A stretch of 45,496 bases of DNA, from the IMG/VR virus record IMGVR_UViG_3300028837_001340, positions 1 to 45,496 of that record. One strand, given 5' to 3'. Source of the stretch: a virus. A program made the position numbers and the translations under genes. The notes beneath the pieces were generated by a model. It was not told the origin of the DNA and made no database searches. It was given only the letters and a program-made list of their open reading frames with translations. Of this stretch, positions 3,804-38,218 are shown one piece after another (within the stretch, counting starts at the first letter, position 1; each line of letters begins with the position of its first letter).

Positions 3804-4568
3804 ATGACAGACGACAATGACGGAATAGAGATATTCTGCGGGGACTCACTCGAAGTTCTATCCGCAATGAGCAATGAGATTGACTTGGTCTTCGGTGATA
3901 TACCGTATCCAGGCATGACCATCCACGACGGATCTACCAAGAAACTGAGCGACAAAGGTTGGTTCCAAGAGTTCGGCGATCTCGCATTCTTCGTTGAGCA
4001 GGCACTCACTAAGACAGGCGTCATGGCGATCCTACTCAACTCCAAAGAGTCAGTGAGGTTCCGCTACGAGTTTGTAAATCATGTGCAGAAAACGACCGGC
4101 ATGGTTTTAGTGGACGAGATCATGTGGCTCAAGCCGTCTATCATTCCAGGCCGAGCCGGTAAAGGCACGTCCAAATTCCGCCAAGCATTCGATCCAGTAT
4201 TGATCTTCGCAAAGAATCCCAAGGACTTCACCTTCAACGCGGTCAACATCGACGGCGAAGACATGCGCGAGATGAATGGCTACTCACGGATGCACGTCAA
4301 CATATTCCGAGGTATGTCCGGGAAAGATGCTGACTACGTTCAAGCCAAAAAGGATACGGACTCCGATCACAAAGGCCGATGTCCTGAGAAGCTCGTCCAA
4401 TATCTGGTCAGCATGTATACCAACGAACTCGATTATGTGTGCGATCCATTCCTCGGTAGCGGCACAACCGCCGCCGCTTGTAAACGTCTCAACCGGGATT
4501 GCCTCGGTATTGACATCAACCCCGACAACATCAAACTGGCGAAGGCCTACGTAAGGAGCGTGAAGTGA
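3804..4568 (+). CDS. Beta-class DNA N6-adenine/N4-cytosine methyltransferase
   Basis: The catalytic motif IV comes first (VFGDIPYPG, D32-I-P-Y35) and the AdoMet-binding motif I is near the C-terminus (CDPFLGSGTT, 213-222, followed by GIDINPDN). This order defines the beta class of amino-methyltransferases (N6_N4_Mtase family). The catalytic tetrad is DIPY rather than the usual DPPY or SPP[YW], so the target base (adenine N6 or cytosine N4) cannot be fixed by motif alone. At 254 residues it is a compact orphan enzyme with no restriction partner nearby, suggesting protection of phage DNA or a regulatory mark. Its TGA overlaps the GTG of the carbamoyltransferase, so the two are coupled in one operon. 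Confidence 0.88.
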   Translation: MTDDNDGIEIFCGDSLEVLSAMSNEIDLVFGDIPYPGMTIHDGSTKKLSDKGWFQEFGDLAFFVEQALTKTGVMAILLNSKESVRFRYEFVNHVQKTTGMVLVDEIMWLKPSIIPGRAGKGTSKFRQAFDPVLIFAKNPKDFTFNAVNIDGEDMREMNGYSRMHVNIFRGMSGKDADYVQAKKDTDSDHKGRCPEKLVQYLVSMYTNELDYVCDPFLGSGTTAAACKRLNRDCLGIDINPDNIKLAKAYVRSVK

Positions 4569-6196
4569 AGACACTACTACTGACCCTCGGTCACAACTCA
4601 ACAGCATGCGTCATCGATAACGATACGCGTAAAATCATCGGCTACGAAGAAGAACGACTCACTCAAATCAAAGGCGACAGCTCATTCCCCGAGATGGCGA
4701 TCCTGGAGATTGGCCGACACATCGATCTCAACACGATTGATACGTACATGATCTCGCATTGGTTTGATAACTTCGACATCAACAAGGTCACGAAATACTG
4801 GGATCCCGTTACGCTCTACGCTTTGGTATCCAATGCCGTCTATTACAATCCTGGTCTCAGTCATCATGACATGCATGCGTACAGCGCCTTAGCATTCGCC
4901 GAGAACTTCACCACCGTCGACAACACATGGCACACCTTGGTAGTGGATGGGTTCGGCAACAACCAGGAAGTCATTAGTCTATATAAGTACGTAGGCGGTC
5001 ATCCCGAATTATCCCTCGTACGACGAGCTCGCGGTTACAACTTCTCGCTTGGATTGATGTTTCAGTATGCGGCAGAGTCCTGCAACATGCATCCACATCA
5101 CGATGTCTATAAATTCCTCGGGTACCGTTCCAAGATTATGGAGAAGGAGACGCCGTACTTGAATGAGGTCGCCAGGCGATTAGCTGCTCCTATCCTCCAA
5201 CGAATTAATGTGAGTGACAGCGCCAACGATGTGGTCAAGCACGATCAACTCATCGACTACCTCGACCTGGAAGCGACGAAGAATTACTGGCGCATCACGT
5301 TTGAGGAGTTTAATGGTGACCGGATCAAGATCGGCTATCTCATCCAAGCGATACTAGAATTGGTGGTGCTCGACATCGTAAGGGTATGGGGAGTCAAGAA
5401 ATTAATGGTAGCAGGCGGCACATTCTACAACGTCCGTCTCAACCACAAGCTGGCCGACAAGTTGGAGAGGTTCTGCCCAATGCCTCTGGCCGGTGATCAA
5501 GGCGGAGCACTCGGCGCGTACCGATACACGGTCGGCCGGAAGGGGATTGAGTTCGGCAACTTATGTTGGGGACCGAGGCGTCCGCTTATCGATACCGTTC
5601 TTTCACCCCCGCGGTTCCAGACAGTCAAGTCATTCAAAGGCGCGATGCCTCTTATCCGCAACGCGTTAGATCAAGGCCTGATCGTCAATGTGGTGAGACC
5701 CGATATGGAATTCGGACCTCGAGCATTATGCCGTACCTCGACATTGGCTCGGCCAACCAAGTTCCACGTCAGTGCGATCAACACTTATAACGGCAGAGAC
5801 ACGGTGATGCCAATGGCCCCCGCCGTTTCATACGGCAAGGCGATGGACCTGTTCCACGTCGAAGACTTGCTCAAGGTACCTGGCTCCGATCGGTTTATGA
5901 TCGTGGCGCATGAGTATAAGTCACTCGACCCCGAAGGATTCCGAGGCGCAGCGCTTGAAGATGAAGGCGCATGGACTGGTCGACCTCAAATCGTGACGGC
6001 CTTGGAAGATCCTACTCTCCAACAGCTACTCGAGGAAGTCAAGTGGGATTGCGTAATCAACACCAGCTTCAACGGTCACGGCGTTCCCATAGTGTTTACC
6101 CGCAAACAGGCGATGACACTTCATTGGAAATGGTTGGGGATCCAGGAAGAAATAGAAGGGCCTGACTTCGTAACCTTCTACTGCATCGATGAGTAG
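4565..6196 (+). CDS. NodU/CmcH-family carbamoyltransferase
   Basis: This 543-residue enzyme has the two-domain plan of O-carbamoyltransferases that use carbamoyl phosphate and ATP to carbamoylate a hydroxyl group. The N-terminal ASKHA/Kae1-like half shows LGHNSTACVI at the start, the metal-binding LSHHDMHAYSAL motif (H100, H101, H104) and VVDGFGN (D128). The C-terminal half shows EFGPRAL (382-388) and NTSFNGHG (499-506). The start is GTG at 4565, overlapping the methyltransferase stop (GTGA). A tailoring role on a hydroxymethylated base fits the hydroxymethylase encoded at 11600; this substrate is an inference. The tetrapeptide after EFGPRAL is CRTS where relatives usually have G-x-RS. Alternatives are carbamoylation of a host metabolite or a surface sugar. 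Confidence 0.9.
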   Translation: MKTLLLTLGHNSTACVIDNDTRKIIGYEEERLTQIKGDSSFPEMAILEIGRHIDLNTIDTYMISHWFDNFDINKVTKYWDPVTLYALVSNAVYYNPGLSHHDMHAYSALAFAENFTTVDNTWHTLVVDGFGNNQEVISLYKYVGGHPELSLVRRARGYNFSLGLMFQYAAESCNMHPHHDVYKFLGYRSKIMEKETPYLNEVARRLAAPILQRINVSDSANDVVKHDQLIDYLDLEATKNYWRITFEEFNGDRIKIGYLIQAILELVVLDIVRVWGVKKLMVAGGTFYNVRLNHKLADKLERFCPMPLAGDQGGALGAYRYTVGRKGIEFGNLCWGPRRPLIDTVLSPPRFQTVKSFKGAMPLIRNALDQGLIVNVVRPDMEFGPRALCRTSTLARPTKFHVSAINTYNGRDTVMPMAPAVSYGKAMDLFHVEDLLKVPGSDRFMIVAHEYKSLDPEGFRGAALEDEGAWTGRPQIVTALEDPTLQQLLEEVKWDCVINTSFNGHGVPIVFTRKQAMTLHWKWLGIQEEIEGPDFVTFYCIDE

Positions 6197-11122: not shown

Positions 11123-11625
11123 TTATCTTAGAAGGACCTGACGGCATGGGGAAATCTACCCTAGCCAAATACATCGCAGGCCGGTTGAGCTGGACAGTGA
11201 ATGAGATTGGGAAGTCACCTGGTGGACCCGACCAGGTAAGAGAATACGCCGACCGATGTGTCGCGTTATCCTCCGCCCAAATCGTTCAAGACCGAGTCAC
11301 GCAAATAAGTGAGTGGATATACGGGAAGACATTCGACCGCCCCTCATTGACGGACGCTGAGTTCCTCGAATGGCAGAGGAAGATGCTACTCCAAAACCCG
11401 GTAGTCATTTACTGCCGAGTCAACGACTTAAGCAAGGTCACTCAAACTCGCGAAGAGTATGACACCGAAGAAACGATCCAACGGATCAACGACAACCTTG
11501 ATGTGCTACGCGACCGATACGACTCCGTAATGTGGGGCGGTCTATACGCCAAGCATCTCATCACCTACGACTACACAAACATGACACAGGAGGAATTGTA
11601 TGAGCTCGTTCTTAGGCGTATATAG
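11119..11625 (+). CDS. Thymidylate-kinase-like deoxynucleoside monophosphate kinase
   Basis: Starting at ATG 11119 (AAAGGAG upstream, ATGA overlap with the pyrophosphatase stop), the 168-residue product begins MIILEGPDGMGKSTLAKYI, a P-loop (GPDGMGKST) like that of dTMP kinases. QDRVTQISEWIYG near residue 57 matches the DR-x-x-x-S substrate motif of that family. Shorter than bacterial Tmk (about 210), like other phage dNMP kinases. A longer upstream in-frame start exists but lies inside the previous gene and lacks a ribosome site. Within this cassette its probable job is phosphorylating the modified dNMP (the role of T4 gp1). The last 26 bases overlap the hydroxymethylase gene. Confidence 0.8.
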   Translation: MIILEGPDGMGKSTLAKYIAGRLSWTVNEIGKSPGGPDQVREYADRCVALSSAQIVQDRVTQISEWIYGKTFDRPSLTDAEFLEWQRKMLLQNPVVIYCRVNDLSKVTQTREEYDTEETIQRINDNLDVLRDRYDSVMWGGLYAKHLITYDYTNMTQEELYELVLRRI

Positions 11626-12388
11626 AGATTTGTTCGCGTATGGTCAACCGGTATCACCACGCGGCCAGAAAATACTAGAGCTGGAGAATTACCAGTTCAC
11701 GATGGAACCTTACGAACGACTCACCACCTTTGAGGCACGAGGGTTGAACCTGCAATACTGCAAAGCGGAGTTCCTCTGGTACTTGGGCGGCGACCGATTT
11801 GATGAGTCCATCGCAGAGCACGCGATCATGTGGAAGAAGCTGAAGGACGTCGACGGTGGATTCAACTCGCAGTACGGCCAATACATTTTCGGTGACGCTC
11901 AGTTCCATTGGGTGTTGGATGAACTACGCCGCGACATCGATTCACGACGCGCCGTCATGGTCCTGCTCCAAGGTGACCACCTCCGCGAAGATAACGTTGA
12001 CGTCGTGTGCACCTACGGCCTTGGCTTCCGGATCCGAAACAACAAGCTGAATATGAGCGTGACGATGCGAAGCAACGACGCCATCTTCGGTATGACCAAC
12101 GACGTGTTCTGTTTCAGCATGATCCAGGAAATGGTGTTGGAGAATCTCAAGCGTATCTATCCAGATTTGGAGATGGGTACCTACTGTCATAAAGTGGACT
12201 CGCTCCATGTGTATGAGCGCCACTTCGAAATGCTGGAAATCTTGGTAACCGACGGTGAAAGGGGAATTTACAACATAGACATTCCCAGAGCATCCAGTTA
12301 CCTCGATTTCCAGTTCCTACAAACCTCTCCTGGTCAACCGGCACCAGAGAATCTCCCCTTGGCACATTGGCTCACTCACAATGTCTAG
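11600..12388 (+). CDS. Deoxycytidylate (dCMP) hydroxymethylase, ThyA superfamily
   Basis: The 262-residue enzyme belongs to the thymidylate synthase superfamily: DSRRAVM (114-120), catalytic Cys137 in VDVVCTYGLGF, MRSNDAIFGMTNDV (156-169) and SLHVYERHF (201-209). At the position that is Asn177 in E. coli ThyA (needed for dUMP), this protein has Asp168. The same Asn-to-Asp change marks T4 gp42 dCMP hydroxymethylase, whose sequence as I recall it also has MRSND, FG and ND at these places. The predicted reaction is dCMP plus methylene-tetrahydrofolate to 5-hydroxymethyl-dCMP. A strong AGGAGG site precedes ATG 11600, inside the 3' end of the kinase gene. Alternative: a CMP or dUMP hydroxymethylase. 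Confidence 0.85.
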   Translation: MSSFLGVYRDLFAYGQPVSPRGQKILELENYQFTMEPYERLTTFEARGLNLQYCKAEFLWYLGGDRFDESIAEHAIMWKKLKDVDGGFNSQYGQYIFGDAQFHWVLDELRRDIDSRRAVMVLLQGDHLREDNVDVVCTYGLGFRIRNNKLNMSVTMRSNDAIFGMTNDVFCFSMIQEMVLENLKRIYPDLEMGTYCHKVDSLHVYERHFEMLEILVTDGERGIYNIDIPRASSYLDFQFLQTSPGQPAPENLPLAHWLTHNV

Positions 12389-24363: not shown

Positions 24364-24813
24364 ATGAAAGAAGGCAGGATTATCACAGCCATCTGTATCG
24401 CAGCCGTCGGGCTCGTAATATTCTTTGCGAGCACAGCGGACGCAGCAGGGTTCCGTGAACAAGAGAGCTGGAAGTTTAGAACGCCGATGGAGCGGTCTGT
24501 ACAATTGCAGGTGGAACAACACCGTCAACTGTATAACGGCCGGTACTTCAAAGGCTCCCACGCCGCTAAGTATCAAAACATCGATGTCCATATCGACAAC
24601 GTTGATGCCGACGGTATGCAGTACCAGGAGATCACCAACATCGGCAACTCGAACCAGACGGTTAACGAGATCACCGGTGACGGGAACATGATCAATGTGG
24701 ATGGTACGCAGGACTCCGCCGACCAGAACGGTCAGAATGGCGCGACCTGGGGAGATGGTTCAAATACTTCTCAACAGCAAGACAGCATGGGAGCAACTCT
24801 CAATGTTGAGTAG
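24364..24813 (+). CDS. Exported protein with curlin-like repeats (minor subunit or nucleator candidate)
   Basis: The start ATG 24364 is fixed by GGAGGAGAT eight bases upstream and by a signal peptide (MKEGRIITAICIAAVGLVIF...STADAA, cleavage after about residue 28). The mature 120 residues are Gln/Asn/Gly-rich. From residue 86 they contain YQEITNIGNSNQTVNEITG and GDGNMINVDGTQDSADQNGQ, the Q-x(4-5)-G-N-x-N spacing of curlin repeats, but only about two units. It overlaps the CsgG-like gene by 11 bases. By analogy with CsgB it could nucleate or anchor the larger repeat protein at 25821; CsgF- or CsgE-like roles are alternatives. Confidence 0.65.
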   Translation: MKEGRIITAICIAAVGLVIFFASTADAAGFREQESWKFRTPMERSVQLQVEQHRQLYNGRYFKGSHAAKYQNIDVHIDNVDADGMQYQEITNIGNSNQTVNEITGDGNMINVDGTQDSADQNGQNGATWGDGSNTSQQQDSMGATLNVE

Positions 24814-25759
24814 AAAACTATTGCCCATGGTAGCAGCTATCGCGTTGACAACAGGCTGCGCATCCCAAGATCAAATGTGGGATCTCAACGACCAAGCTCG
24901 TATCACCCCCGAGGATTACACGACCCCAATGGCCGACGCGATGCAGTGTTCTGCTGAAACGCAGTTGGTAAAAGGTCGCGACTTCAGGCTCGGCATCGGT
25001 ATTATCGGTGCTGAAGACGGGGTGTTCGATTATGAAAGCCAGGGAAAGTACACGCCAAACAGCGCGCATCACATGATGATCACCGCTCTCAAGGCAAGTG
25101 GCTTCCGGGTTATGAACCGTCTTGGCGAAGTCACGACGATGATGGAGTGGGAGAATGCCAAGTCGATGGACAAGCTTTTAGGCGATGGCAAATCCAACTA
25201 CGTCGACGCACAACGTCCTATGAGAGATTACGATGGCGAGATTATCACTAACAAGATGGGCAACCAGGTTCCGGAAACCTACAAGAAAGAGATACGTCAT
25301 CGCATCCTCACTCATGGTCAAATGCTGGGATCGACTCACTTACTCAGTGGGGCGATTACTCGACTTGACTTCGATACCAGTTCTGGCGGTTTTGAGTTAT
25401 ACGTTAACGGTGTTGGTGCTGGTAAACGTGTTTATCGCATGCTTATTGGCATGGACATGCATGTCACTAACACTATTACAGGAGAAATTGAATGGGCTAA
25501 GGCCTACGACAAACAATTCTTCGGTGTGGAAATAGCAGCTGGCGTATTCCGGATGATCGACGGTGAAATGGTTGACCTCAACACAGGCGTTGAAACAGGC
25601 GAGCCGATTCAAACAGGTGTACATTACCTGGTTGATTATATAGCTTACGACATGTCCCGAGAGTTTAGGGGCGTGGCTAAGTTCTGCGATGATAAGTTAC
25701 CTCAACCAGAAGTGGAAGTTGAACACCACTCGGACGAAGTAGCACAACAAGATTCCTAG
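24803..25759 (+). CDS. CsgG/HfaB-like curli secretion channel lipoprotein
   Basis: ATG 24803 (GGGAG upstream, 11-base overlap with the previous gene) starts a 318-residue lipoprotein: MLSRKLLPMVAAIALTTGC gives a lipobox Cys19. Residues about 180-285 follow CsgG: LLSGAITRLDF...SGG (CsgG: EGSIIGYESNVKSGG), a VTNTITGEIEW strand like VVNVSTGEI, and VEIAAGVFRMID matching CsgG's VQAGVFRFID, followed by a NEP-like GEPIQTG. SAHHMMITALKASGFRVMNR fits the earlier TAMLVTALKDSRWFIPLER region. CsgG forms the outer-membrane pore through which curli subunits leave the periplasm. Adjacent repeat proteins are its likely substrates. The acidic C-terminal 30 residues are extra. No CsgE or CsgF is recognised. 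Confidence 0.8.
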   Translation: MLSRKLLPMVAAIALTTGCASQDQMWDLNDQARITPEDYTTPMADAMQCSAETQLVKGRDFRLGIGIIGAEDGVFDYESQGKYTPNSAHHMMITALKASGFRVMNRLGEVTTMMEWENAKSMDKLLGDGKSNYVDAQRPMRDYDGEIITNKMGNQVPETYKKEIRHRILTHGQMLGSTHLLSGAITRLDFDTSSGGFELYVNGVGAGKRVYRMLIGMDMHVTNTITGEIEWAKAYDKQFFGVEIAAGVFRMIDGEMVDLNTGVETGEPIQTGVHYLVDYIAYDMSREFRGVAKFCDDKLPQPEVEVEHHSDEVAQQDS

Positions 25760-25788
25760 CATTTAGGATAGGGTGGCGACCTCCCGCC

Positions 25789-25802
25789 AAAACAATTGTT
25801 TT
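25789..25802. repeat. 14-bp perfect palindrome
   Basis: AAAACAATTGTTTT, between the CsgG-like gene and the repeat protein. A TGGCG/CGCCA hairpin lies directly before it (around 25776-25790). Together they could form a weak terminator (hairpin plus T-run) or an operator. Confidence 0.55.
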
Positions 25803-25820
25803 TAATCTTTGGAGATTTAC

Positions 25821-26465
25821 ATGAAAAAAGTAATACTTGGTTTGGCCGTAATGGCAATGAGTAGTTCAACACTGGCTGGTGGATTCGGTTGGCCTCCTAT
25901 CTTCAGCGGCGGTGCGGCTGATTATGATATCGAGCAAACAACCACTGCTCCTCAGTTCGCACTGAACGTTGCAGACATCGGTCGCGCTACTCGCATTGAG
26001 CAAGTTGCTCAGAACGTGGGTAACCTCGCCGAAGTCAATGACCTGGACGGTACCGACGGTGGCCTGGATTCAGTCCAGTCTGTTGGCGAGATGCAGTTTG
26101 CTAAGAACGTTATCGAAGTCGGATACGTTTCAAACTCTATCGACCAAACCGCTAGTAACTTCGGCTCCAGCCTTACCGTTACCGGTGTGAATGGCGGCAT
26201 TGACGCTACTCAAACTCAGAACGGTCTGCAACACGCGATCAACCAATTGGACATTCACGATCCAGTTTCAATTGATCAAATCGCCAGCAACAGCGGAAAC
26301 AGCATCACGATCACGCTGCCTTCCTCTAACGTTGTTACGACTCAGTCAGTTGGCGCACCTCAGGTGGCAGGCAACTTCATGACTGTGGGTTATGTTGGTA
26401 ACGTAGCACAGACCGCCGCGAACATCGGCAACGCTGTGTCTATCAACCCGGTAACTACTCCTTAA
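25821..26465 (+). CDS. Exported curlin-like repeat protein (major fibre subunit candidate)
   Basis: ATG 25821 follows TTTGGAGATTTAC. A signal peptide (MKKVILGLAVMAMSSSTLA, cleavage near residue 19) precedes 195 residues almost without Lys, Arg or Cys. Four copies of a 44-48 residue unit are visible. Each has a strand-turn-strand motif IEQVAQNVGNLAEV (59), IDQTASNFGSSLTV (107), IDQIASNSGNSITI (151), VAQTAANIGNAVSI (195), alternating with a Q-x5-Q-x-A-x-N half-unit starting near 39, 86, 131 and 176. The Q-x-A-x-N-x-G-N register resembles CsgA/CsgB curlin repeats. With the CsgG-like channel upstream it is predicted to be exported and form an amyloid-like beta-solenoid fibre. Not homologous to tail fibres. 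Confidence 0.75.
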   Translation: MKKVILGLAVMAMSSSTLAGGFGWPPIFSGGAADYDIEQTTTAPQFALNVADIGRATRIEQVAQNVGNLAEVNDLDGTDGGLDSVQSVGEMQFAKNVIEVGYVSNSIDQTASNFGSSLTVTGVNGGIDATQTQNGLQHAINQLDIHDPVSIDQIASNSGNSITITLPSSNVVTTQSVGAPQVAGNFMTVGYVGNVAQTAANIGNAVSINPVTTP

Positions 26466-26900: not shown

Positions 26901-27278
26901 TCATTTTTCTCGTGCCACTCCCTTCATCTTCTCGGCCATGCGCATAGTACCAAACCCAAGTAGGCCACCCAACATCGTGAGGAGGAGCGTGGTGTCAACC
27001 AGGGGCATCTTAAACCAGATACTAAAGATCGGTTGGATGAACACGGCGTACAACAATCCGAGGTTACATATCCACAAGGTCGCAGGCCTGGCGCCGGCCA
27101 CGAAGATATTCTTATGAGCCGCGGCCTGTTGGTTAACCGCAATCTGAGCGATAGCGATTTCATTGGCGTGTTTCTCCGCCATGGTCGCCAGGTCGTGAGC
27201 TAGCTGAAGTTTGGTGTCAGCATCCGGAATGAATTTATCCAGTAACTCAGTTGCACCTTTTATAATTCCCTCAATCAT
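26901..27278 (-). CDS. Holin, 3TM (gene-transfer-release) family
   Basis: The 125-residue protein matches the three-TM holin family (GTA_holin_3TM). An amphipathic N-terminal half (ATELLDKFIPDADTKLQLAH...AEKHANEI) is followed by the signature ARPATLWICNLGLLYAVFIQP. A second hydrophobic region (TLLLTMLGGLLGFGTMRMAEK) follows, and the end is basic. It should form lesions in the inner membrane at the end of infection. It is the last gene of the leftward operon and overlaps the preceding gene by eight bases. No endolysin is recognised in this window. Confidence 0.85.
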   Translation of the reverse strand: MIEGIIKGATELLDKFIPDADTKLQLAHDLATMAEKHANEIAIAQIAVNQQAAAHKNIFVAGARPATLWICNLGLLYAVFIQPIFSIWFKMPLVDTTLLLTMLGGLLGFGTMRMAEKMKGVAREK

Positions 27279-33362: not shown

Positions 33363-34244
33363 CTATGCAAGGCCAACCGCGAACCAGTTGGCTTGATTAA
33401 CGTTGGCACCGGTGCGGACCGTGAAACTCGAATTGGTGATGTTCCACACGACCACCGTGGCGAAATCCGCTATACTCGCCCCCGCGGTAGCTGTCACCGT
33501 ATACGCGTTACCTGAAAAGGTTGATGGGAAGTTAACTGTTGTGGGACCAGTACCTGTTGTCACCACTCGACCCCACTGGATTTTGATAGGTCCGATTATA
33601 CGCCATCCGTTCTGGGCGTTGACACCGTCGCCTATCGAGTTGTTGTCGACATACCGCTTGTTCGCTGCGTCCAAGTTGTTTGTGGGATCTGCCAGTTGGG
33701 TGACTTTGTTCGTTGTGCCCATGTTCAAATTGCCCGACATGGTGCCGCCTGTCTTGTTCACCCGAAGGTTGTCGGCGGTGTCCACATAGGTTTTGTTCGC
33801 GGCGTCCGACAAGGACGTTGGGTTGCCCAAGGATCGGATTTGCTGCAAGCCCATGTTCAACTGGCCGGTCATGGCTCCACCGGTGAGGTCCAGCTTCCTG
33901 GAATCCAATTGATCGATGGCGCCTTGAACGTTGGTAGCCGTCAGGTTGGAACCGGCTGGGTTGTATGTCACGAAGAAGGCGTCAACCGTAGAGCTGAATT
34001 TCGCAGTGCCCGTAGTAATGGTACCCACCTGGGCATCACCTTCACCTGGACTGACGTACATATTGAGAAGCCAGAATTCTGGATCGGTTGTGTCCAACCA
34101 CAACATACCCGGCACGGCGTAAGACGGTCTAACCGATCCACCATGCTGTGAGTGGAGAGCAGCCTCGCCTTGGTTCAACCTATCGGCAAGCTGGGTACCT
34201 GACGTCGTGTTGGGGTCGATTGTTTGCCATTGAAATTGTGACAT
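33363..34244 (-). CDS. Tail fibre protein, paralogue of the long fibre's anchor
   Basis: The 293-residue protein shares its N-terminal 65 residues with the neighbouring 1318-residue fibre (MSQFQWQTIDPNTTSGTQLA, LNQGEAALHSQH, then YAVPGMLWLDTTDPEFW). Two TGG-x-MTG-x-L-N-MG repeats with D-AANK-x-YVD follow (about residues 120-200). The C-terminal 80 residues are a receptor-binding-like domain (GWRIIGPIKIQWGRVV, then FPSTFSGNAYTVTATAG), the type found at the ends of lambda-like and P2-like fibres. It is adjacent to the tip protein gene with a one-base overlap. A shared anchor suggests both fibres attach to the same baseplate site. Confidence 0.8.
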   Translation of the reverse strand: MSQFQWQTIDPNTTSGTQLADRLNQGEAALHSQHGGSVRPSYAVPGMLWLDTTDPEFWLLNMYVSPGEGDAQVGTITTGTAKFSSTVDAFFVTYNPAGSNLTATNVQGAIDQLDSRKLDLTGGAMTGQLNMGLQQIRSLGNPTSLSDAANKTYVDTADNLRVNKTGGTMSGNLNMGTTNKVTQLADPTNNLDAANKRYVDNNSIGDGVNAQNGWRIIGPIKIQWGRVVTTGTGPTTVNFPSTFSGNAYTVTATAGASIADFATVVVWNITNSSFTVRTGANVNQANWFAVGLA

Positions 34245-37200
34245 TATGAAGTTGCTCCTATTGTGCCGGGTATCGCCAGTGTCGCCGCCGGCGCGATTTG
34301 TTGATAGCCATGACCGTTGGCGATCCAGTTGATTGTCTTAGTACCGACGAAGACTAATTCGACGATGAACGAGAACCTGGTAACCGATACCACTCGGGCC
34401 GAGTCTACGTTGTCTTGGTCCTGCAAGGTCAGCGATACGTTGGGTGGTAGGTAGAACGGTGAGGGGTCCCCGTTCTCATTCGTAAAGAACACCTCCACGT
34501 TAGCCGTCGCCGTGGTCAACGATCCGCTTGAAGTTCGACCTGGTTGGGATACCACCATGTTCGCTGACTCTATGATCGGCGTAGTGTCTCCTGCGTCCAG
34601 TGACCGAATGACTAACCGGAATGCAAACCGGGCGCCAGCTACATCACGCACGTTGAACGGCAGCCATGGAGACCAGAGGAACTCGTTCTCATTCAGTGGA
34701 TCGATGTTAGCAAGTATCAACCAATCCGCCATGGTGAAACCGTCGTCACTAGCGAATTGGAATTCAGGAACCACTTCCCATTGATCGGAAAGGAAGCCAC
34801 CCGTAATCTCACCTCGACCGACGATATTGTCGATGATTCGAGTGATGAAGCTGGACTCGAGTAATGACACCGACTCGAAGTAGTAATACGCCAATTGGGT
34901 GGGATCGATTACCTGAAGCTCGTTCGCTCCGTTAATAGTACAGTTTGTTTTAGGTCCACCCCAAGGCCGATTCGGAGACCAGTTGAGCAGCAACGTTTCC
35001 TGGAGAATCTCAACACGGAAGAAGTCAACTTCACGTGGGGGTGTGATATCACCGATTGGGAGGATCGCCGTCCAGGGTGACGTGTCAAGATCCTGCTTCA
35101 GGCCAGTAGGTCCGACCGCCAGCACTCGGAAGAAGTAGGCTACATCGACGATGTCCTGGCCGTTGGCTCCGGCGATAGGCACGTCTTTGAAGAAGTAGTA
35201 CTCATTCTTGGAGACGGTCGCGTCCAGCTGCCAGGACTGTCCACGCCACACGTAGATTTGATATTGCGATGTGACCGACGAGTCGTTCTTTTCCCAAAAC
35301 AGTCGGACGCTTGTGTAGGGTATCCGATCGATGTACAGGAAGTTGACTGAGCCGTCCGAGTTGATCGGCTCCTGCCGTACCTTAAGACCCGTGACGTGCG
35401 GAGGCGCGACGTCTCTGTCCGGCGCGATCTTCACGCTCCATGGTGGAATGGGCCCGGTATCAGCGGAGTAGATAGGACGCGCCAGGTTGGTCAACGTTAT
35501 CGTAGCGGTAAGATCCGGACCAGGTCTAACGTCCAGAACCAGGAAGTCATCGACTACGAAGTCTACGATCCCGTAGGAGAACAGGTCGCCGATGTCAGCG
35601 GTTATGCCGCCTGCGACCGTGACGGTGAATGGATCCACCTGGTTCGTTATCTCGTATGACTTAAGGGTGTTGCTGGTACCGTTCACCTCTCGCATACGGA
35701 TGGAGTAGATACCCGGCGCGTTAGTGTCGAAGGGCTCTGATGCCGTGATGTTCTGGCCGCTAATACCGGTGACACGAGCCGGCGATCCTCCGATCTTGGC
35801 GATGTCTTGTTGGAGCTGTACGTAGTCACCGCGCTGGCAAACCAGATTCTCAAGATCCATGCTGATCGTGAAAGTCTCTTGACGAAGTATCGCCTGCGCC
35901 AGGTAGTAACGGCCGTCTCTCCATGCTTGGGTTGAGCGGGTAACACCGAAGAGCGGAATGTCTTCAAACTTATTTGAGTTCCCTGCGTCTTTACCGTCGG
36001 CGTAGACGATCACTTCCTTTTGCTGCCAATTGGCATCGGGGTCAACGAACTTGCAGCGAATGGCGTCCGGCGTGTCGATGAACGTCCGATTGCCGGAGAA
36101 ACCCCACGAGTTGTGAGGCGTGATCAACTGGATAGGGACAGTGGGCTCAACGTCCCACGTCATGCGGTACACACCATCCTGGACGATCAACGCACCTCGA
36201 GCGGCGTTAGCCACCGACTTGGCGAGTTCCCATACAGTCGTTTGATAGTCGACGACCATGTCACACCGGAACATTGACTCATCGCTGTTCGGCGCCTTCT
36301 GGAAACAGAAGTTACCGAATTGTCGGAACGATTCCAGATCGATCTTGTCCATCTCGATAGGAGTAGGCGTAGCGGTACCAGTGAGAATATCCAAGATGAT
36401 CCAGGCTGGACTAGAAGTAATGACCGTGTTGAATTGGCTTCCATTCCATACCGGGATTCTCGCGTTCGCCTGCATGTTGATCGTGCTGATCACACCGTTG
36501 AGCTGGTCGGTTGCTTTGACTCTCAGCTCCATAACGGTGTGAGGACGGTCGAACTCGAATGGCGCCTGATTGAGTATAGACCTAATAGCCGTCAACGTGC
36601 TGATGGACGCGCCGTAAAGTGAATCGTCCAAGTCAGGATCCGCGGTAGTTCGCTTTAACCGGAGCTCGTAAACCGCCGTCTCCGGGAAGTTCATCGTCAT
36701 CATAACGGTGAAAGGCTGCGTAGTCTCGTCGCTAACCGTGAATGTGTACGGCGCGAATGTCAAAGCCGTGCCGGCGCTTGTGTAATCCGGGACGGGAGTG
36801 TATAAGCCTGTTCCCGCATTCACGCTATCTGGATTATCAAATCCAACAGGCTGCGAGTACTCGTATGGGACCGTGATCAAATCACCCAACAGCGGAGGCG
36901 AGATCGGGATGATAGCCGAAGGACCCGCAGGCACAAGCGAAGTGACCGTGTAGTTAGTACCGTTGATCCAGATAAGCGAGGCCGCAGGAATGTCTTGTGA
37001 GATAGTGCCAACCAACTCCTCCGATCCTTCGGGGAATCCGATCAAGGGGTTAGGCTGACCTGCCGCGTAAGTCGGATCGTAGTCGTCATCACCCCCGAAC
37101 TCAGAGCCAATGAACAGGATCGTCGCGCCGTCCGCCGGATCACCTTCTGTTGGAAGCGACGTTGGGTTGCTACCGCCCTCATCAAGCTGTTGAAGAAATG

Positions 37201-38218
37201 CGCCGTAGTTGTAAGGACTTCCCCAGTTACCCCAACCAGAGTTGACTCGCACCTGGCGAGAGAAGTCGTAATCAATACTACCAAATCGCTGCCAGTCGAC
37301 TTCACCCTCTTTGCGGAACTCAACGCTTAGGATAACCGACCGGACCAGCTTGTTGCCTTTCTTGCTCAGATCGAATAAACCCGTTGGGAAGGTGAAGTCG
37401 ACTTGGGCACTGTCAGCCAGACCAGTTGAGCGTATGACTTCCTGCTGTGACTTCAACTCGACGCTGAAGTTCTCGGTGGATATATCCTTGGTGTATCTCG
37501 TCAAGGTGGATCCGTCCAGGACGTCTCTGCGAATATTGAATCCTAGCTCCTTATACTGACCGATAGGAGTCTCGCCGATTCGGATATCGTTGACGTTGAT
37601 GTTGCCGTAACCGAGGTCCAGGAGCATGTACAGGTATTGGTCACGATCACCAACCGTCTGGATATACGGCTCCGCCAGATTGGCTGGCCAGATCCTGTGG
37701 CGACCATACACCCTGGTGACCGCGCCGTATGGGCGAGTAGAGTTACGCTGACCTTGAATCGACAAGGTGGGTGATTCGGTTCCGCCGCCTGACAGTGAGT
37801 CGGTGTTTAGACTCGGGGGTGGAAAGATTGCGTTGATCGCCAATGTGCCTGCGACCGAGATCGCGGCGGTGACGGCTAAGGTCGCCGTGACACCGGCACC
37901 CGCGCCAAGGATTAGGCCGGCGGCCCAAGGGGCGATAAAGGCGAGAGCGATAACCGCGATCAAGCGGAATATGTTTTTACCGCCTCCACCGTGAGCAACC
38001 GCAGCTATGAGTACGTGAGTACCGACGTCAGGCCTGTACTCCTCCCAAGTGCTTCGCTCAATGTGCATGCCTTCAACAAACACCTCGATATACTCGAGCA
38101 TCTCGTATGGGACATCGACATCACGGACTAACTCTGCAACCGTCTTCGACTCGTTGTACGAAAGGATCTGCGTATCCTTATCGGATATCGCATGCGGACG
38201 AACTACTAACTGACCCAT
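34244..38218 (-). CDS. Tail tip / central fibre protein, lambda J-like
   Basis: The 1324-residue protein has the organisation of host-specificity tip proteins. An N-terminal ubiquitin-like/tail-assembly part comes first (VRPHAISDKDTQILSYNESK), followed by the hydrophobic region FRLIAVIALAFIAPWAAGLI...LAVTAAISVAGTLAIN near residues 85-135 that resembles lambda gpI fused to J. Then comes PTLSIQGQRNSTRPYGAVTR with YGRHRIWPAN (TipJ/phage-tail_3 region), and large beta-rich and fibronectin-III-like modules to the end. The fusion of I-like and J-like portions is common in phages of this type. It lies directly after the NlpC/P60 gene, the order seen in lambda (K-I-J). Confidence 0.85.
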   Translation of the reverse strand: MGQLVVRPHAISDKDTQILSYNESKTVAELVRDVDVPYEMLEYIEVFVEGMHIERSTWEEYRPDVGTHVLIAAVAHGGGGKNIFRLIAVIALAFIAPWAAGLILGAGAGVTATLAVTAAISVAGTLAINAIFPPPSLNTDSLSGGGTESPTLSIQGQRNSTRPYGAVTRVYGRHRIWPANLAEPYIQTVGDRDQYLYMLLDLGYGNINVNDIRIGETPIGQYKELGFNIRRDVLDGSTLTRYTKDISTENFSVELKSQQEVIRSTGLADSAQVDFTFPTGLFDLSKKGNKLVRSVILSVEFRKEGEVDWQRFGSIDYDFSRQVRVNSGWGNWGSPYNYGAFLQQLDEGGSNPTSLPTEGDPADGATILFIGSEFGGDDDYDPTYAAGQPNPLIGFPEGSEELVGTISQDIPAASLIWINGTNYTVTSLVPAGPSAIIPISPPLLGDLITVPYEYSQPVGFDNPDSVNAGTGLYTPVPDYTSAGTALTFAPYTFTVSDETTQPFTVMMTMNFPETAVYELRLKRTTADPDLDDSLYGASISTLTAIRSILNQAPFEFDRPHTVMELRVKATDQLNGVISTINMQANARIPVWNGSQFNTVITSSPAWIILDILTGTATPTPIEMDKIDLESFRQFGNFCFQKAPNSDESMFRCDMVVDYQTTVWELAKSVANAARGALIVQDGVYRMTWDVEPTVPIQLITPHNSWGFSGNRTFIDTPDAIRCKFVDPDANWQQKEVIVYADGKDAGNSNKFEDIPLFGVTRSTQAWRDGRYYLAQAILRQETFTISMDLENLVCQRGDYVQLQQDIAKIGGSPARVTGISGQNITASEPFDTNAPGIYSIRMREVNGTSNTLKSYEITNQVDPFTVTVAGGITADIGDLFSYGIVDFVVDDFLVLDVRPGPDLTATITLTNLARPIYSADTGPIPPWSVKIAPDRDVAPPHVTGLKVRQEPINSDGSVNFLYIDRIPYTSVRLFWEKNDSSVTSQYQIYVWRGQSWQLDATVSKNEYYFFKDVPIAGANGQDIVDVAYFFRVLAVGPTGLKQDLDTSPWTAILPIGDITPPREVDFFRVEILQETLLLNWSPNRPWGGPKTNCTINGANELQVIDPTQLAYYYFESVSLLESSFITRIIDNIVGRGEITGGFLSDQWEVVPEFQFASDDGFTMADWLILANIDPLNENEFLWSPWLPFNVRDVAGARFAFRLVIRSLDAGDTTPIIESANMVVSQPGRTSSGSLTTATANVEVFFTNENGDPSPFYLPPNVSLTLQDQDNVDSARVVSVTRFSFIVELVFVGTKTINWIANGHGYQQIAPAATLAIPGTIGATS

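Follow-up and report, generated by a model that had tools for sequence, protein, structure and literature searches.

Anchoring of the Caulobacter holdfast involves a small exported protein (HfaA), a CsgG-like channel (HfaB) and a larger exported protein (HfaD), encoded in this order, and CsgG itself belongs to the curli system of type VIII secretion (csgBAC-csgDEFG). In phages, csgF-csgG has been published in viruses of SAR11 and OM43 (PMC9004378, PMC7029224), and csgG is placed among the most abundant phage-borne 'virulence' genes of marine viromes in a further study (PMC7003362). The two csgF-csgG papers report csgA and csgB as missing from these phages, one of them allowing that hypothetical genes may stand in. 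Here, we describe a three-gene block in a 45,496-base virus record from IMG/VR (IMGVR_UViG_3300028837_001340, whose whole length is called the window), in which genes for a small exported protein (P0001), a CsgG-like channel (P0002) and a larger exported protein (P0003) follow one another on one strand in the holdfast-anchor order. We consider it probable that this block is an HfaB-type cassette exporting P0001 and P0003 as surface fibres and, taken jointly with this, that the cassette is an accessory module which travels between types of element, apart from the virion and lysis modules.

P0002 matches the Pfam CsgG model (PF03783) with 39.5 bits (cut-off 20.8; E 4.9e-10; residues 172–286) and the solved Escherichia coli CsgG chains in phmmer (E 1.6e-6; residues 174–270), which the profile of alignment A7 reaches at 8.9e-16. 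It also matches phrog_20175 (4e-20), a family whose function is not known. A lipobox, LTTGC, with the cysteine at residue 19, is visible by eye, so that an earlier interpretation made from the letters alone (the sequence-only reading) was right in describing a CsgG-like lipoprotein; the lipobox cysteine was not seen in the channel homologues of CcrPW, CcrColossus and L006. The best NCBIfam model for P0002 is the holdfast anchoring protein HfaB (92.7 bits, E 2.1e-26), followed by curli CsgG (27.6 bits, under its cut-off of 505). The NCBIfam Hfa models appear sound, because a chromosomal trio, L049, passes all three cut-offs (HfaA 137.5 against 50, HfaB 413.7 against 300, HfaD 366.2 against 100), which upholds the HfaA/B/D naming of the chromosomal loci for the one trio tested. 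A 36-row tree sets the curli CsgG proteins of E. coli, Aeromonas, HTVC008M and Melnitz apart at 100/100 and joins P0002, at 98/100, with the channel of a Loktanella plasmid, which is 32% identical and, like P0002, has a long branch; a 56-row tree agrees (99/94), with a warning that long branches meet. Judging by these comparisons, P0002 belongs on the HfaB side rather than the curli side, its exact place being uncertain. The nearest channel being on Loktanella plasmids is only a hint as to the host of the window phage.

Curli proper was rejected on four grounds, namely the absence of CsgE and CsgF among the window proteins scanned with Pfam (very short open reading frames (ORFs) left out), the absence of a Pfam Curlin_rpt (PF07012) match in P0001 or P0003 at E≤1, the NCBIfam scores and the tree. 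The block shares with curli the CsgG fold family and Q/N-rich repeats but has another repeat pattern, and the label 'curli-like (type VIII)' given by the sequence-only reading does not hold in the strict sense for a locus with the hfaA-hfaB-hfaD layout. The profile search that this reading had proposed bears out its channel, in the CsgG/HfaB family, and not its curlin repeats. The pelagimyophage and Melnitz systems resemble the window in having a phage CsgG channel with adjoining repeat proteins, and differ in that their CsgG is of the curli type in the tree and comes with CsgF. In both HTVC008M (L073 6597–7922) and Melnitz (L074 5482–6498), proteins over the Pfam cut-off for Curlin_rpt are encoded close to csgG; the HTVC008M protein also has a PA14 domain.

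In P0001, the conserved part is not the tail, which is rich in N, Q and G, but a stretch directly after the signal peptide (approximately residues 1–27, by eye). A hidden Markov model (HMM) built from seven other small proteins encoded next to HfaB-type channels, two of them near-identical (L002 and L003), scores mature P0001 at 21.3 bits, the best of 500 shuffles reaching 9.7. Alignment of all eight, again with two near-identical Loktanella rows, gives a G-E-x-x-x-W-x-F-x-T stretch in which the E and second-aromatic F columns are invariant in 8/8 rows. Typed as a motif, this WxF signature is found in 9 of 11 WxF-set proteins and in 29 of 10,000 shuffles of P0001, and is absent from the 13 canonical HfaA-type and the 7 type-c small proteins; the two WxF-set rows without it, L107 and L113, read E-x-R-P-W-Q-F-D-T and mismatch only at the letter preceding E. 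The R-D-x-N-G-N stretch of canonical HfaA is not in P0001. In curli, the N-terminal segment of CsgA is the part that the channel recognises, and by analogy with it the WxF segment of P0001 is a possible channel-recognition segment. Curlin-type Q-x-A-x-N repeats had been claimed for both exported proteins, but P0001 contains no Q-x-[AFS]-x-N motif and has its N/Q/G-rich tail instead.

For P0003, the earlier claim of four repeat units with two half-units each is confirmed: its internal-repeat score of 127 is reached by 0 of 500 shuffles, the highest of which scores 68, and the eight Q-x-[AFS]-x-N motifs (residues 45, 61, 92, 109, 137, 153, 181 and 197) fall into four units of two. When compared by hhalign with the units of jumbo-phage repeat proteins, the P0003 units score 23.8 (65%), with at most 12.1 in 30 column shuffles, a likeness that moderately supports, but does not prove, a relationship. 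Two Loktanella repeat proteins near CsgG carry 15 and 1 of the Q-x-[AFS]-x-N motifs, respectively.

The same trio is found in other phages. A tblastn search of 50,697 phage records with P0002 returned nine, five of Brevundimonas and four of Caulobacter phages (two phages, each twice); a search of phage records with P0003 gave no match. All four records opened, CcrColossus (gp241-243), CcrPW (gp250-252) and the Brevundimonas phages Domovoi and Kabachok, are jumbo phages of the Dolichocephalovirinae and hold the small protein, the channel and the repeat protein in this order. These cassettes share with the window the three genes, a WxF small protein and a Q-repeat protein; the CcrPW channel is likewise best matched by HfaB (207.5 bits), and its repeat protein weakly by HfaD (23.2 of 100). 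They differ in that their channels are 24–29% identical to P0002 and their genomes measure 280–357 kb, whereas that of the window is a phage of small siphovirus type. The sequence-only reading knew of no characterised phage system with this layout, but it is already present in records of jumbo phages, where most of the products are listed as hypothetical: GenBank entries call the channel 'putative CsgG-like curli assembly protein' or 'hfaB' and its partners 'hypothetical' or 'putative lipoprotein'. Two jumbo-phage genome papers have no CsgG or curli in their main text (PMC3556154; PMC10070969), and no description of a phage HfaB-type trio was found in the open-licence literature searched. The published phage csgGF systems are of the curli type, and the channel of the HfaB-type trio has already been named in some records.

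A viral contig of 499,572 bases also carries the trio. Scans of IMG/VR require short exact peptide patterns, so that absence elsewhere does not follow from them; they returned no relative with P0002, A5 or the exonuclease, one short 46% match with the primase, and CcrPW, CcrColossus and the 499-kb contig alone with A1, A4 and A8. A first scan of species genomes found nothing, probably because the divergent P0002 served as the confirming sequence, and a second found one bacterial locus (L012), in Pseudoxanthomonas sp. Root630, where the trio directly follows TrbL, VirB8, CagX and TrbI genes. Because of these genes and a serine recombinase about 1 kb beyond the trio, the locus looks like an integrative conjugative element. 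The trio is also present on a Variovorax plasmid, whose repeat protein has 1,566 amino acids and whose small protein, as annotated, starts just ahead of the WxF signature. The channel of this plasmid (L066 8908–10323) has a long C-terminal extension past the CsgG part that by eye resembles an OmpA-type domain. On a Loktanella plasmid (L070 7307–9790), a WxF small protein and a channel have two opposite-strand repeat proteins as neighbours, and genes for polysaccharide export are close by. The small proteins of the jumbo-phage, viral-contig, plasmid and Pseudoxanthomonas trios all have a W/F-x-F signature like that of P0001.

In bacteria, the channel profile matches 55 of 398 genomes of the phylum of Pseudoxanthomonas and Variovorax; of 62 listed matches, 22 score at least 131 bits and the other 40 below 57. 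In 16 of the 20 regions fetched for 21 strong matches, a small protein and a repeat protein were both recognised next to the channel, and by the composition filter one or neither partner lies beside it in L053, L058, L060 and L062. L049, the trio that passes all three Hfa cut-offs, is among these loci. A further search in the class of genome G122 found the channel in 37 of 385 genomes, and WxF small proteins are encoded in 4 of 20 regions fetched from this class (L107, L108, L113 and L118). The arrangement is therefore one that belongs to bacteria, with copies carried by phages and other elements.

Several observations bear on the accessory status of the cassette. With a tail-tube marker, 48 phage records are related at 60% identity or more (duplicates counted here and below), and the channel is present in nine of them, all within the 11 records at 76% identity or more. 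In the remaining two, Gurke and Kikimora, the same searches did not find the channel, and the genes upstream of the site are present; of the two, Gurke alone was opened. A sister set, in which the channel comes first and is followed by the repeat protein, the small protein and an Hpt protein, was matched in five Vibrio alginolyticus records, of which three were opened; the role of the Hpt phosphorelay protein within this set is unexplained. One record, read whole, is circular and has terminase, portal, baseplate, tail, RepB and ParAB genes, and is by this gene content a phage-plasmid. The 2,638-base set is 98.5% identical between two phage-plasmids (L067 14586–17223, L129 11382–14019), whereas their other matching stretches are 63–71% identical, and it lies beside parAB in one and among tail and baseplate genes in the other. 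Because a near-identical set stands on diverged backbones at different sites, it is the strongest sign of such sets moving as units, and suggests this for the sister form rather than for the WxF form of the window.

The coordinates of the block are collected in Table 1. The P0001 and P0002 ORFs share 11 bases, 61 bases separate P0002 from P0003, and a purine-rich, ribosome-binding-like stretch precedes all three starts; signal peptides are visible by eye at each N-terminus. Chance ORFs are ruled out by the family matches and the conservation. The terminator-like stem past P0003 is probably the end of the cassette transcript; terminator-like sites are weak by number in this region (7 found, 4.6 expected, standard deviation 2.5), but this one is well placed.

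Table 1. Position of the cassette genes, the WxF signature and the downstream terminator-like site in the window
Feature	Position	Strand	Basis
P0001, small exported protein of WxF type in the HfaA position, 149 amino acids	24364..24813	+	ORF; signal peptide by eye
W/F-x-F-x-T/N signature of P0001, residues 31–40, REQESWKFRT	24454..24483	+	Alignment of eight small proteins
P0002, outer-membrane lipoprotein of the CsgG/HfaB family, predicted export channel, 318 amino acids	24803..25759	+	Pfam, phmmer, NCBIfam, trees
P0003, exported repeat protein in the HfaD position, made of four units and, in all, eight Q-x-[AFS]-x-N half-units, 214 amino acids	25821..26465	+	Internal-repeat analysis
Intrinsic-terminator-like stem and T run, 20 bases past P0003	26485..26511	+	Consensus scan

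Replication genes (primase, helicase, exonuclease and DNA polymerase) precede the block (24364–26465) on the plus strand, and the minus strand carries lambda-like tail genes and a holin, a GTA-type protein with three transmembrane helices encoded just past the cassette (26901–27278). No integrase was found among the window proteins scanned and no tRNA in a search of the window. A near-identity search of phages with the left 24 kb gave no match. On the tail side, contig L131 is 99.97–100% identical to the window over 13.4 kb apart from 252 extra bases (84 codons' worth; L131 10530–10781), which fall at window position 34967/34968 inside a J-like tail gene (34244–38218, minus strand) and are perhaps a host-range variant of the tail tip; a relative, L132, breaks at the same place. 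At 3804–6196, a DNA methyltransferase-like gene is followed by a Nol/NodU-type carbamoyltransferase gene, and a thymidylate synthase gene lies at 11600–12388; DNA base modification is a possible role of the three.

By channel homology and layout, P0002 should export P0001 and P0003. We propose that all three proteins cross the inner membrane via their Sec signal peptides and that lipidated P0002 forms a CsgG/HfaB-like ring channel in the outer membrane, both by homology. The channel would then recognise P0001 by its WxF segment and P0003 by some feature of its own and export both unfolded; outside the cell, the two would, like HfaA/HfaD and curli, form stable and perhaps amyloid-like fibres that stay attached to the surface. 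Such fibres could make the infected or carrier cell adhesive or clumped and keep it among kin or on a surface, to the benefit of onward infection; a plasmid or conjugative element would gain from the coat through easier contact between cells. For pelagimyophages, adhesion and clumping have been proposed as 'sibling capture' (PMC7029224), whereas with Melnitz, which has the curli-type system, no clumping was seen (PMC9004378). We regard the account including this benefit as plausible without being quite probable.

A coat of the same kind might instead hide receptors from other phages or from the phage's own progeny, as superinfection exclusion, or act in surface exclusion when carried by plasmids. 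This is the main rival to an adhesive role, and we consider it unlikely even though it draws on the same evidence for export. It predicts presence on elements that are carried along, and so explains the Vibrio phage-plasmids, the Variovorax plasmid and the locus linked to a type IV secretion system equally well; masking genes also move as morons, as the Vibrio set does. The known relatives, HfaABD and curli, act in adhesion, however, and nothing here ties the presence of the cassette to receptor type.

It is far less probable that the cassette serves envelope opening, with the channel as a late gated pore, as proposed for CsgGF of Melnitz (PMC9004378). The holin gene next to the cassette speaks for such a role, but it lies on the other strand, past terminator-like sites, and a pore would make two exported proteins superfluous. 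The outer-membrane opening at lysis that the sequence-only reading had considered became less likely because the annotated endolysin-holin-spanin set of CcrColossus (104550–106388) lies approximately 78 kb in the record from the cassette (184902–187266); moreover, plasmid and secretion-linked copies have no lysis to time. About as improbable is that the exported proteins end up on virions, or as a matrix that clumps phages, instead of coating the cell. Fibres freed at lysis could trap virions near the next host, but signal peptides route the proteins out of the cell, away from virion assembly, and the cassette stands outside the tail module of the window. The channel and two exported proteins in one phage block, as claimed from the letters, are supported.

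Several results weigh against the export of surface fibres by an HfaB-type cassette. P0002 matches Pfam CsgG only in its second half, scores far under the HfaB equivalog cut-off of 300, and diverges more than any other channel in the trees: no relative there exceeds 32% identity, and the end branch of 2.46–2.89 carries the long-branch warning. Its AlphaFold monomer model is weak (predicted local distance difference test (pLDDT) 35.3); the best-scored part has long strands at 179–194, 209–223 and 229–245 and a C-terminal helix at 268–297. The top 12 Foldseek matches of this model are all CsgG 4uv2 chains (template-modelling scores 0.19–0.25 by query, 0.26–0.32 by target), but with so weak a model, and with sequence entering the Foldseek comparison as well, this adds little. 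None of the NCBIfam models, HfaA included, matches P0001, and a profile comparison of the P0001 group with canonical HfaA, made with fewer than 30 shuffled controls, aligns the signal peptides alone. With the HMM of the jumbo-phage repeats, P0003 scores no better than shuffles (5.8 bits in its best domain, up to 10.2 in shuffles); it has neither an HfaD match nor any sensible NCBIfam match, and its single-sequence AlphaFold model (pLDDT 33.6) is uninformative and does not confirm the beta-solenoid that the sequence-only reading expected. A promoter-like site directly ahead of P0001 was not found by consensus scan, and no second cassette copy turned up in a phage close to that of the window; the relatives recognised by tail genes are fragments that end short of the place. 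Homology of P0001 to HfaA and of P0003 to HfaD was not borne out by NCBIfam or, for the small proteins, by the profile comparison, and the phage-borne block is filed as an HfaB-type cassette and not as HfaABD because neither partner matches the HfaA or HfaD family.

What phages use CsgG for has been puzzling, since the published systems were mostly treated as pores with no recognised substrate; here, a channel is found next to two predicted exported proteins, and this gene order recurs in unrelated phages and in mobile elements of other kinds. More speculatively, and with considerable doubt, WxF-type HfaB cassettes may be a general surface-conversion module with which mobile elements re-coat the host for their own spread. 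Virulent jumbo phages, the small siphovirus of the window, a plasmid and a conjugative element would each have acquired a channel along with its own fibre substrates, and phage-plasmids have a sister form. If true, this would be a secretion-based counterpart of the lysogenic conversion that modifies lipopolysaccharide. As CcrColossus and its Caulobacter host are in laboratory use, whether and why phages build surface fibres on infected cells is directly testable.

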